Positions 8,184 to 12,026 of a stretch of 64,000 nt of DNA are shown one piece after another. Source of the DNA: Haladaptatus paucihalophilus DX253 (GTDB lineage: Archaea > Halobacteriota > Halobacteria > Halobacteriales > Haladaptataceae); NCBI RefSeq assembly GCF_000376445.1, contig NZ_AQXI01000001.1:652962-716961 (forward strand), given 5' to 3'. A program made the position numbers and the translations under genes. The first letter of the stretch is position 1; each line of letters starts with the position of its first letter. The notes below the pieces were generated by a model that was not told where the DNA came from, made no database searches, and saw nothing but the letters and a program-made list of their open reading frames with translations.

Positions 8184-9005
8184 ATGAGCGACATGGACCC
8201 CGCGCGGTACTACGACGAGTACGGCGAACGCGAGTGGGAGCGACTGGAACGCGACCCCGTTACCCGCATGGAGTTCGCAAACACGGTCGATTACCTCGAC
8301 CGGTACCTCCCCGACTCGGGCCGCGTCCTCGACGTGGGCGGCGCGTCGGGCCGCTACGCGCTCTGGCTCGCAGAGTGTAATTACGACGTGACGCTCGTGG
8401 ACGTGAGCGAGACGCAGGTCGAACTCGCCCGCGAGAACGCCGCCGAAAGCGGCCTCGAAGACGTTATTTCGGCGGAGCAGGGCGACGTCCGAGACTTGCG
8501 ATTCGAGAACGAGGTGTTCGACGCGGTGTGCTGTCTCGGTGGTCCCTTAAGCCACGTCGTGGACGACGACGAGCGCGCCACCGCCATGCGCGAACTCCGC
8601 CGGGTCGCCGCATCCGACGCCCCCGTCTTCGTCTCCGTCATCAGTCGCTTCGCACCCCTCCGGGACATCATGAAGTTCAACCTCGAATCCAGCCACGGCC
8701 TGCTCGCCCCCATCACCGAGGACGGCAAGTACACCGCCGAACGCGTCGCCGAACACGCCGATGGAGAAGGCTGGGCGGAGTGTCACTTCTTCCGCGCCGA
8801 CGAGTTCGAAGCGGAACTGGAGGACGCCGGTTTCGACGTCGAGCAACTGGTCGGTTTGGAGGGCGTCGCCAACCGCATGAAACCCGAACTGGCCGACGCC
8901 AGCGACGAAGCCGTCGAGAGCGTGCGCGAGGTCGTCCGGATGCTTCGAGAGGACCGTGCCGTGGTCGATTTCTCGGAGCACATGCTGGCGGTGTGTCGAG
9001 TATAG
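8184..9005 (+). CDS. class I SAM-dependent methyltransferase
   Basis: A 273-residue Rossmann-fold methyltransferase. Motif I is RVLDVGGASGRYALWLA (about residues 47-63), followed by VTLVDVSETQVELAREN (acidic motif II) and a later CCLGGPLSHVVDD stretch. The C-terminal half contains hydrophobic segments that could shape a small-molecule pocket. The start chosen is ATG 8184, preceded by a GAGGG ribosome-binding-like stretch; upstream in-frame codons are low quality. The substrate is unknown. It sits between pccA and the AT-rich island but has normal haloarchaeal composition, so it belongs to the backbone. Confidence 0.85.
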   Translation: MSDMDPARYYDEYGEREWERLERDPVTRMEFANTVDYLDRYLPDSGRVLDVGGASGRYALWLAECNYDVTLVDVSETQVELARENAAESGLEDVISAEQGDVRDLRFENEVFDAVCCLGGPLSHVVDDDERATAMRELRRVAASDAPVFVSVISRFAPLRDIMKFNLESSHGLLAPITEDGKYTAERVAEHADGEGWAECHFFRADEFEAELEDAGFDVEQLVGLEGVANRMKPELADASDEAVESVREVVRMLREDRAVVDFSEHMLAVCRV

Positions 9006-9351
9006 AATCTGGAGCGTTTGCTCGTCCGGCGGTGTGCTTTGCCACTCCCATTCATGTGCTTTGCCACCTCCGTTCAATTACGCGGGAGTGGACACGCCAC
9101 GATATCCCTCTCAATCCATGAATCGTTCCTGGTGCATTACGTAGTGTGCAACTCTGTTGAAATCGGTGGTCGGTCCGGTTGCTCACAGTCGCTACAGCTT
9201 CTCGGTCACCGCTCAAGGTCCATACGAAATGACCGATTTTTAAATCGAGGTTCGACATTTGTAGTCTCCAGAAGATATATTATTTCCCATATTTTAAAGA
9301 TTAAATTATAGACTAGATTTATTGGCCACGGTGAAATTTGTATTTGATGCC
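9006..9351. other. intergenic left flank of the AT-rich borosin island
   Basis: Composition changes here from GC-rich to AT-rich at about 9230. A 12-bp direct repeat gtgctttgccac occurs at 9034-9045 and 9056-9067. A TATA-like gatttattg at 9316-9324 lies about 30 bases before the precursor ATG and is a good promoter candidate for the island. No complete transposase, integrase or tRNA gene is visible on this side. Confidence 0.45.
9316..9324 (+). promoter_or_regulatory. TATA-like element of the borosin-like operon
   Basis: The stretch gatttattg is centred about 30 bases upstream of ATG 9352, which would place transcription start roughly five bases before that codon. This supports ATG 9352 rather than the upstream TTG at 9322 as the start of the precursor gene. 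It is inferred from spacing and composition only; the flanking DNA is AT-rich, so chance matches are possible. Confidence 0.4.
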
Positions 9352-9564
9352 ATGTCGGAAACTGCAACAAAAGTGGTCGAACGCACGATGCAAGATGAAC
9401 AGTTCCTCAACCTCTTCCAGCGTAATCCAGATGCGGCATTGGAAGAGTATGATCTCGCAGAACACGAGGAAAAAGCGCTGAAAAGTGGCAAAGAAAGCCG
9501 AATTCGCGATGTTATTGACGATGCGTTGGCCGCTGCAGTACTTGTTGTTGTCGTGAATAACTAA
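9352..9564 (+). CDS. putative split-borosin precursor peptide (LigA-like leader plus hydrophobic core)
   Basis: A 70-residue peptide in two parts. Residues 1-55 form a helical leader like the small LigA-type domain used as the methyltransferase-binding region of split borosin precursors; the conserved stretch is FLNLFQRNPDAALEEYDLAE, ending in SGKESRIRDVI. Residues 56-70 form a hydrophobic tail, DDALAAAVLVVVVNN, resembling the Val-rich cores that borosin enzymes N-methylate. The methyltransferase gene follows after 23 bases. LigA domains also occur as a dioxygenase subunit, but no LigB gene is nearby and the tail and partner argue for a RiPP precursor. Base composition is AT-rich, unlike neighbouring haloarchaeal genes. 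No cleavage site or protease is evident. Confidence 0.8.
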   Translation: MSETATKVVERTMQDEQFLNLFQRNPDAALEEYDLAEHEEKALKSGKESRIRDVIDDALAAAVLVVVVNN

Positions 9565-9587
9565 CAATCGCTTCCACAATTTTTACC

Positions 9588-10433
9588 ATGACAAACAATA
9601 GCAACTCGGACAGTACGAATTTTGTAGATATTTATGTGATTGGAACAGGAATGGTAGGAACCCGTCAATTTACTCAAGAAGCGATCTCAGCACTTGAGCA
9701 ATGTGAACGAGTATATTTAGTCCATTTCCAAAAATCTGTCAAAAAATATCTAGAAGAATTTACTGACCAAGTTCATGTTCTCACTGATGAATACAACGAA
9801 GGTGAAAAGCGCGATAATACATATGCTCGTATGGCTCAACAGGTTCTAGATGGAGCAGAAGAGTCTGAGGGTCCTGTGGTGTTTGCCCTATATGGTCATC
9901 CAATGGTTTTTGTTTCACCTAGTCGATGGGTGATTGATGAGGCGCCAGAAAGAGGATTAGAAGTTGAAGTCCAACCAGGTATCTCATCTATGGATTGCTT
10001 ATATTCCGACATTGCTTTCGACCCTGCTAAAAATGGCGTCCAGATGTTCGAGGCAAGCGATTTACTCCTTCGTGAGTTTGACCTTAATCCAGATATTCCG
10101 GCAATGATATGGCAAGTGGGTATGCTTGAATCGGCACTTTATACCACTAATTCAAGTGAGCCTGAACGATTTACTCGATTTAGAGAATATCTTGAGCGAT
10201 TTTATCCACCGGACCATTCTGTTTCACTCTTACAGACCGCAACTTATCCGATTTCTAATTCAAGACAGATAGAATTCGAAATTAAGGATTTTGAGAAAAT
10301 GGCTGATGAGATAAATGCAATCCAGACGTTATACATCCCACCAGCTAATGAACGACCAGTACAGAACGAAGAACTCGCTGAATTGTTCAAATCAAAAGAA
10401 CATATAGAAACAATAACTAATAAAAACTCTTAA
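9588..10433 (+). CDS. borosin-type peptide backbone alpha-N-methyltransferase (split form)
   Basis: A 281-residue enzyme of the tetrapyrrole-methylase fold (PF00590-like). It starts with the SAM-binding strand VIGTGMVGTRQFTQEA, then carries EYNEGEKRDNTYARM (residues 68-82), which matches the Tyr/Arg/Tyr active-site pattern of borosin methyltransferases such as OphMA. Next come FALYGHPMVFVSP (about 99-111) and VQPGISSMDCLYSDI (128-142). Borosin enzymes methylate backbone amide nitrogens of a precursor's C-terminal core using SAM. There is no core peptide at its own C-terminus; the separate upstream gene would supply it, as in the SonM/SonA pair of Shewanella. No cobalamin or siroheme genes are nearby, which argues against a corrin methylase role. 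AT-rich; probable operon with its neighbours. Confidence 0.85.
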   Translation: MTNNSNSDSTNFVDIYVIGTGMVGTRQFTQEAISALEQCERVYLVHFQKSVKKYLEEFTDQVHVLTDEYNEGEKRDNTYARMAQQVLDGAEESEGPVVFALYGHPMVFVSPSRWVIDEAPERGLEVEVQPGISSMDCLYSDIAFDPAKNGVQMFEASDLLLREFDLNPDIPAMIWQVGMLESALYTTNSSEPERFTRFREYLERFYPPDHSVSLLQTATYPISNSRQIEFEIKDFEKMADEINAIQTLYIPPANERPVQNEELAELFKSKEHIETITNKNS

Positions 10434-10457
10434 CTACATACATTATTTTATTAATTT

Positions 10458-11717
10458 ATGAGCTTCAGATCATCACTTAAAAATCGAGGATTTCTTTCGC
10501 TATGGTTGGCTCAAGTTGTGTCACGGATTGGTGATAGTATCCATGAAATTGCACTGATTTGGGTTGTTTACGAAGTAACTGAAAATCCGGTGTTGATGTC
10601 TGCAGTAGTCGTTGCAAGTCTCGGACCAAGCGTGTTATTTTCACTTCCTGCCGGTTCCTTAGTTGATAGACTAAACCGTAAATATATTTTAATTGGCACC
10701 GACCTTATTCGGGGTGCAGCAGTTCTCTTAATACCACTCATTGGATCCCGCCAACTTCTCGTACCAGTGGTGCTTTTTGTTGCAGCTATTTCAGGTCTAA
10801 TGGAATCATTTGCTGGTCCTGCTCGGAGTTCGCTTATCCCACGACTGGTTCCAAACACGGAACTTGATTCAGCAAATGCACTCCAACAAATGACCACTAG
10901 TGCATCACAGACCCTGTATGTGATTGGTGGTATTATTGTGGGTGTTACTGGATCATTTTCTGCATTTTATCTGGATTCAGCGTCATTCTTCCTTTCAGCT
11001 ATCATTCTACTACCTATTTCGAGGCAAGCAGGTACACCAGACCGTTCAAGCAATAATTCCACAGGATTACTAGCGGAGGCGCGTGATGCGATTGACTTTA
11101 TCCGACAGCACCGTATTTTGCCAAGTGTTATCATTCTCTCTGCCCTTACCGGATTTGCATTAGGCCCACTTGCCATCGTATTACCACTGTTCACCGAAAA
11201 TATACTCGGACATGGGAGTACTGCGTTTGGGATACTGTATGGTAGCCTCTATGCGGGGGTTTTAATCGGTGGGACGATTGTTGGCGGGGTCAATACTCGT
11301 CTTAGCTCGTATAGAGGAATTATTATGACAGGTGGCACACTTCTCACTGGACTCTCCCTGATACTTGTTGCTATAATCCCATCACAAGTCTCATTTTCTT
11401 TAGTCGCTGCGATCATCCTATTTGCGTTCTGTGGGGTGGCAATTTCACTTATTCAAGTTCCACTTCAGACATTGGTTCAATCTGCAGTCCCTGATGAGAG
11501 ACGCGGACGGGTTTTTTCTGTAATGACTGCCGCTGGGCTCGCTGCACCGCCAGTTAGTGTTGCACTTACTGGCCCGCTTCTTGCTCAGTTTGGAGTTATT
11601 AATTTACTACTTATTGAAGGTATTTTTGTATCTCTATCCGGTATTATTATTGCGTTGACTCCCCTTGCTCATGTTGGAGAAAATGATTCAGCGAGATCTG
11701 ATTTACTGAACAATTAA
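10458..11717 (+). CDS. MFS transporter, probable exporter of the modified peptide
   Basis: A 419-residue major facilitator superfamily permease with about twelve hydrophobic helices. Typical features are an N-terminal NRGFLSLWLAQVVSRIGDSI, the loop 2-3 motif GSLVDRLNRKYIL and the mirrored PDERRGRVFSV in the second half, as in MFS drug or siderophore exporters. It begins 24 bases after the methyltransferase gene and shares its AT-rich composition, so it is probably the third gene of the operon. By position it may export the methylated peptide or protect the producer; that is inference. No peptidase domain is fused to it. Confidence 0.85.
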   Translation: MSFRSSLKNRGFLSLWLAQVVSRIGDSIHEIALIWVVYEVTENPVLMSAVVVASLGPSVLFSLPAGSLVDRLNRKYILIGTDLIRGAAVLLIPLIGSRQLLVPVVLFVAAISGLMESFAGPARSSLIPRLVPNTELDSANALQQMTTSASQTLYVIGGIIVGVTGSFSAFYLDSASFFLSAIILLPISRQAGTPDRSSNNSTGLLAEARDAIDFIRQHRILPSVIILSALTGFALGPLAIVLPLFTENILGHGSTAFGILYGSLYAGVLIGGTIVGGVNTRLSSYRGIIMTGGTLLTGLSLILVAIIPSQVSFSLVAAIILFAFCGVAISLIQVPLQTLVQSAVPDERRGRVFSVMTAAGLAAPPVSVALTGPLLAQFGVINLLLIEGIFVSLSGIIIALTPLAHVGENDSARSDLLNN

Positions 11718-12026
11718 TGAAATTTACTTCCCCTCAAGATAGACATCTCCCGACAAAATTTGTCAAAATAGTGTTTAGAATACGCATAATGTATTTCGAG
11801 GGGTCCAATTCGGGTATTCCCTATCCATGTTCACTACTCAGCATGATCCCAATATCTGATTTTTAGAATCATTGTTGATAGTACATAAATTCGACACGCT
11901 TGCCAAACTCTTGTAGTTCTGCTTAGTGCAACAAGCAGGAGTAAGACAAATCGACCCCGGCCAGTTCACTCTTCGCGTACAAGTGGACCACGTTCACTGC
12001 ACCTGAAATCATAACCGAAAGTGAAC
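11718..12026. other. AT-rich right flank of the borosin-like island
   Basis: About 300 bases with no supported gene. The first 200 bases are AT-rich like the island, and the last 80 return to GC-rich sequence near 11940. Read on the minus strand, 11940-12000 encodes a short open stretch (VVHLYAKSELAGVDLSY) without a recognisable family. I see no convincing inverted repeats, transposase or integrase, so how the island arrived is not shown. Confidence 0.4.

Follow-up and report, generated by a model that had tools for sequence, protein, structure and literature searches.

The question raised by this locus is whether three closely spaced haloarchaeal genes, encoding a small peptide, a methyltransferase, and a transporter, constitute a split borosin cluster, the product of which would be a backbone N-methylated peptide. 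The window, i.e., the whole stretch of DNA that was analyzed, is 64,000 nucleotides long, and the features of interest within it are the following.

9352-9564, plus strand: precursor peptide P0001, 70 amino acids, ATG start; putative split-borosin precursor by leader profile, predicted helices, and SonA similarity
9352-9510, plus strand: borosin-binding-domain-like leader, precursor residues 1-53, by AlphaFold2 pLDDT and structural matches
within 9352-9564, plus strand: hydrophobic tail of the precursor, about residues 54-70, VIDDALAAAVLVVVVNN
9532-9564, plus strand: predicted methylated core, residues 61-70, AAVLVVVVNN, by phmmer alignment to SonA
9588-10433, plus strand: putative borosin alpha-N-methyltransferase P0002, 281 amino acids, by sequence, tree, and AlphaFold2/Foldseek
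10458-11717, plus strand: MFS exporter P0003, 419 amino acids, drug-efflux-like, by MFS_3, TIGR00900, and a homologue in genome G275
9000-12025, no strand: low-GC insertion carrying the cluster, 37-46% GC versus 61-68% in the flanks
11880-12023, no strand: fragment of a dispersed repeat, at the insertion's right edge, with four further partial copies in the genome (46-109 bases, 73-93%)

An earlier note on this DNA had described three same-strand open reading frames with gaps of 23-24 bases, and this layout was confirmed to the base: 23 bases separate the precursor and enzyme genes and 24 bases separate the enzyme and MFS genes. The precursor and methyltransferase genes are in different reading frames.

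The methyltransferase and its precursor peptide

When the 281-residue protein was compared with PDB sequences, it matched dbOphMA (E 1.3e-32), MroMA1 (8.5e-29), OphMA (7e-27), and SonM (1.6e-26). The PDB sequence matches were fungal and bacterial borosin enzymes, with E values from 1e-32 to 1e-25; no corrin or siroheme enzymes were found among them, and diphthine synthase appeared at just E 0.79. In an AlphaFold2 model with a pLDDT of 84 (the enzyme and the precursor were both modeled as single chains), the top 50 Foldseek matches were all borosin enzymes. An alignment with dbOphM places Y69, R75, Y79, and Y102 of the window enzyme at the positions of OphMA Y66, R72, Y76, and Y98; a YGHP motif is located at residues 102-105, and PGISSMDCLYSD at residues 130-141. 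No methylation was detected after expression of the OphMA variants R72A, R72K, Y76F, Y98F, and Y98A, while the Y63F and Y66F substitutions merely reduced activity (PMC6108569). The position of Y63 is occupied by T66 in the window enzyme, and fungal MroMA1 likewise has a threonine there. The borosin signature claimed in the earlier note (Y69, R75, Y79, YGHP, and PGISSMDCLYSD) is present in full, and the enzyme matches are well above chance. Judged by its sequence and predicted structure, the protein is a member of the borosin alpha-N-methyltransferase family.

Sequence similarity of the 70-residue peptide to SonA is weak (E 0.03-0.06). In a phmmer alignment of the two, L63 and I65 of SonA, its methylated residues (PMC11285071), lie opposite L64 and V66 of the window peptide; by this analogy, the methylation sites in the window core are probably around L64/V66. 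The AlphaFold2 model of the precursor contains five helices, with a pLDDT of about 90 over residues 1-40, and the fifth helix extends into the tail with low confidence. The SonA borosin-binding domain has a five-helix architecture, and the unmethylated SonA core was observed as a helix (PMC8429565). The best structural matches of the leader were SonA, the OphMA clasp, Os1348 (6lk7), and the LigA-type region of DesB; taken alone, these matches of a short helical domain are statistically weak, with a Foldseek E of about 0.6 and VIA Z scores of 6 at most, and we used them in a support role.

A leader profile was also built. Five of the six strong-match genomes contributed rows to it, the sixth being near-identical to one of those five, and it detected seven peptides at 2e-27 or better in all six genomes with the closest enzymes (the window's included; G298 contains two). 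Since the rows came from the matched genomes, the independent test is a leave-one-out profile made from the other loci and SonA, which found the window peptide at 3.4e-20 among 5818 open reading frames. The leave-one-out test also succeeded for the other haloarchaeal peptides. In three genomes of the divergent genus g32, matches to the leader profile were weak (2.8e-6, 0.04, and 0.11), and in eight enzyme-less congeners nothing better than E 0.3 was found. The earlier note's leader peptide with a hydrophobic, Val-rich tail is therefore borne out by the profile and the predicted helices. Its split arrangement in the style of SonA/SonM also stands: precursor and enzyme are encoded by separate adjacent genes, with the core at the C-terminus of a compact precursor, which is the gene layout of a type IV split borosin. 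In kind, the window cluster is a split borosin, a known class.

Haloarchaeal relatives and rival identities

The enzyme was missing from eight of eight congeners and from 19 of 19 further family members examined. It was present in nine of 391 sampled Halobacteria genomes (about 2%) and on a plasmid of Haloarcula sp. CBA1115; the enzyme of G217, a genome from the same order as the window genome, is identical to that of the plasmid. Phylum-wide, the only other strong match was in G673, outside the window's order. A single-sequence scan of genome contigs for enzyme relatives yielded nothing and an alignment-based scan yielded bacterial enzymes only, so the archaeal relatives were taken from whole-genome and plasmid searches. 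The haloarchaeal enzymes formed one group (support 94/95, 200 of 200 bootstrap trees) in a tree that has an arbitrary root and three rows with very long branches and from which SonM was left out. The closest non-archaeal enzymes found in the genome collection are bacterial (32-40% identity), and most of these bacterial relatives have an open reading frame resembling a borosin-binding domain (BBD) directly upstream of the enzyme.

The leader peptide adjoins the enzyme in nearly all haloarchaeal loci. The leaders are alike and the tails vary (AAVLVVVVNN, TSTVVIIVVV, ADVSVTIIVRIR, SDVLVAVVVTIARA, MATVYTITITYV, MATVYTITITYVSRKRD, and GIQIAGIVLPSSEA), being hydrophobic in close relatives. Comparison of two related clusters gave a dN/dS of 0.17 in the precursor gene and of 0.03 in the enzyme gene; the cluster genes of this pair are under purifying selection.

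Precursor architecture is diverse among the wider set of loci. In G298 (L009:8358-8905), an ABC transporter lies upstream of two different tandem precursors and the single enzyme that follows them. In the g32 genomes G351 and G728 (L014 and L073), the leader is followed by a short charged tail ending in PRSWLINN, and a hydrophobic core is not evident. A probable multicore precursor in G706 (L072, G706:C19:388000-403000; precursor from about G706:C19:396563 onward) has a borosin-type leader followed by six tandem DDNIGYTGDS repeats, and is encoded divergently from the adjacent gene of a divergent haloarchaeal borosin enzyme. In a 426-residue open reading frame of G673 (L061:4407-5687), the N-terminus is BBD-like, and a proline-rich linker and a methyltransferase domain of the borosin type (dbOphM, 5.7e-53) follow; by its sequence, this is apparently a borosin of the fused kind, in a second lineage of archaea. 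In a bacterial precursor from Opitutaceae (L015:7598-7999), a long poly-Thr tract (TTTTTTVITTTTTT) follows the leader.

Two other identities were weighed against that of a borosin pair. The enzyme could be a tetrapyrrole (corrin or siroheme) or diphthine methyltransferase, with the small open reading frame unrelated to it. It does belong to the Pfam TP_methylase superfamily (4.5e-20), which is common to corrin and borosin enzymes, and it gave partial matches to the NCBIfam models of YabN, CobI/CbiL, CobJ, and Dph5, but all of these were far under the curated equivalog cut-offs (79.9 versus 525 bits for YabN, 27.4 versus 163 bits for CobI/CbiL). Given these scores, the composition of the PDB matches, the retention of the borosin-specific catalytic residues, and a leader peptide that travels with the enzyme gene, we regard such an identity as extremely unlikely. 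The earlier note's preference for borosin over corrin and siroheme families survived the profile comparison, in which borosin enzymes were best by both sequence and structure; tetrapyrrole, YabN, and diphthine enzyme identities were ruled out on the curated cut-offs. The peptide, in turn, could be of the NHLP/Os1348 or LigA type, with other enzymes modifying it. The Os1348 family model NF038399 matches it at 3.5e-8 and Pfam LigA at 0.027, in line with the structural matches to 6lk7 and DesB. These scores are, however, under the cut-offs (33.4 versus 40 bits and 15 versus 25.3 bits, respectively), as is that of TIGR03793 (12.7 versus 50.9 bits), the borosin-binding domain has dioxygenase caps among its own structural homologues (PMC8429565), and a borosin enzyme adjoins the leader peptide in haloarchaeal loci. 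A peptide of this type is thus very improbable here.

Cluster partners and the insertion site

The third gene product, P0003, matched MFS_3 at 1e-34 and TIGR00900 at 1.1e-68, the latter below its cut-off. In G275, a genome from a different family, the gene for a 41% homologue directly follows that of the enzyme, such that its start codon and the enzyme's stop codon overlap, while no MFS homologue at E 1e-30 was found anywhere in the genomes G107, G298, G138, and G217. MFS genes also adjoin borosin-type enzymes on one Legionella and one Serratia plasmid. No protease gene was found in the window cluster, and S9-family peptidase genes are present elsewhere in the same genome; with no dedicated protease in the cluster, the mature product cannot be predicted.

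These observations bear on whether the transporter acts on the product. The enzyme and the peptide could form a borosin pair whose product is not exported or is not a secreted effector (for example, one involved in intracellular protein modification), the MFS gene being a bystander. Such a reading accommodates the lack of a protease, the generic efflux-pump character of MFS proteins of the P0003 type, and the fact that other haloarchaeal clusters are without an MFS gene, several of them having an ABC transporter gene near the enzyme instead. Against it speaks the recurrence of the MFS gene beside the enzyme in the second lineage, that of G275, together with its absence from the four genomes named above and the Legionella and Serratia plasmid pairs. 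We therefore find a bystander role rather unlikely, and retain the MFS gene in the borosin cluster, as the earlier note had placed it.

A different partner gene was found on the Haloarcula sp. CBA1115 plasmid and in G138 and G217, where a prolyl oligopeptidase is encoded immediately downstream of the enzyme.

L008:7758-10909, on the plasmid of Haloarcula sp. CBA1115 (and likewise L012 and L013): consecutive genes for a precursor, a borosin enzyme, and a prolyl oligopeptidase

The Haloarcula precursor tail ends in IVLP-SSEA. The fungal macrocyclase OphP is a prolyl oligopeptidase and accepts proline at P1 (PMC12235650); by analogy, the product of the Haloarcula cluster is a candidate macrocyclic N-methylated peptide. 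A prolyl oligopeptidase gene is also located beside a borosin-type enzyme gene on a plasmid of Bradyrhizobium sp. 155.

The genes flanking the window cluster encode a class-I methyltransferase and a carboxyltransferase. In the congeners G002, G003, G006, and G007, these flanking genes are 20-27 bases apart, and the cassette is therefore an insertion of about 3.0 kb. The same slot contains about 7 kb of other DNA with a 1561-codon open reading frame in G001, and about 17 kb of other DNA, including a 766-codon open reading frame, in G004. The slot is a variable insertion site. The repeat at the right edge has several copies in congeners too; no terminal inverted or direct repeats convincingly bounding the insertion were found. 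The data fit a recent, horizontal acquisition of the cassette, and horizontal spread agrees with the enzyme gene being plasmid-borne elsewhere.

Proposed pathway and comparison with known systems

In our view, the cluster is highly likely to be a split-borosin cassette gained by horizontal transfer; its leader would dock on the enzyme, and its Val-rich tail would be N-methylated, cleaved, and exported by the MFS protein. The computed basis of this reading consists of the enzyme family, the active-site residues, the leader fold, the recurrent gene set, the insertion, and purifying selection; the methylation, the residues it affects, cleavage, export, and any ecological role are inferred. By analogy with SonM and OphMA, the first 53 or so residues of the precursor would fold as a borosin-binding domain and dock on a dimeric enzyme, and the Val-rich tail, disordered or weakly helical, would thread into the SAM-containing channel. 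There, R75, Y79, Y69, and Y102 would position the peptide and stabilize the peptide bond as an imidate, and methyl groups of SAM would be transferred to several successive backbone nitrogens in the AVLVVVV stretch. The methylated peptide would be released and then cleaved in trans by a protease encoded elsewhere, after which the MFS protein would export the methylated tail. The cassette very probably yields a short backbone N-methylated peptide and pumps the product out of the cell; a role of this product as an archaeocin or a signal is speculation.

Backbone N-methylation makes peptides protease-resistant and membrane-permeable, and is chemically hard to install. It is an even call whether haloarchaea hold a family of exported, backbone-N-methylated peptides that has so far gone unreported and comes in several variants: a Val-rich linear form with an MFS exporter (the window and G275), a form on plasmids of Haloarcula whose prolyl oligopeptidase could macrocyclize a core ending in IVLP as OphP does, a two-precursor form (G298), and a six-repeat multicore form (G706). 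If true, this family would be a first for borosin chemistry, both as found in Archaea and as carried out in molar salt. A salt-adapted borosin enzyme, possibly with the paired Haloarcula plasmid cyclase, would bring borosins to the third domain and could provide salt-tolerant tools.

A review gives fungi borosin types I-III and bacteria types IV-X (PMC11285071); according to a survey from 2024, metazoans have fused borosins and fungi have split ones (PMC11395268). Our literature searches found no report of archaeal borosins; Imani 2022, Cho 2022, and the type 0/RODEO study were outside their scope, and priority is not claimed. A survey of archaeal RiPPs works on lanthipeptides, and the word borosin is absent from it; archaeal RiPP clusters have already been expressed in Haloferax volcanii (PMC12144867), which makes an archaeal borosin cluster directly testable.

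The closest counterpart in layout is SonA/SonM of Shewanella oneidensis (type IV, PMC8429565; PDB 7LTC and 7LTE), which shares with the window cluster a separate compact precursor (71 residues versus 70 here), a binding-domain leader, a hydrophobic core at the C-terminus, and a free-standing methyltransferase that is about 27% identical to the window enzyme in a structural alignment. Unlike in Shewanella, the host here is archaeal, the core is AAVLVVVVNN, and an MFS gene is part of the cluster. The fungal enzymes OphMA, dbOphMA, and MroMA1 have the same methyltransferase fold, the essential residues corresponding to R75/Y79/Y102, and a clasp homologous to the leader, but their core is fused to the enzyme, and Y63 of OphMA is replaced by a threonine in the window enzyme, as in MroMA1. 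The prolyl oligopeptidase used in fungal omphalotin synthesis is without counterpart in the window cluster and present in the Haloarcula plasmid cluster. Bacterial long-precursor split borosins (Opitutaceae, Phycisphaerae, Bryobacterales, and Streptomyces; L015-L035) have the closest non-archaeal enzymes and the upstream BBD-like open reading frame, but a long region follows their leader, whereas haloarchaeal precursors are in most cases short and terminate with the core.
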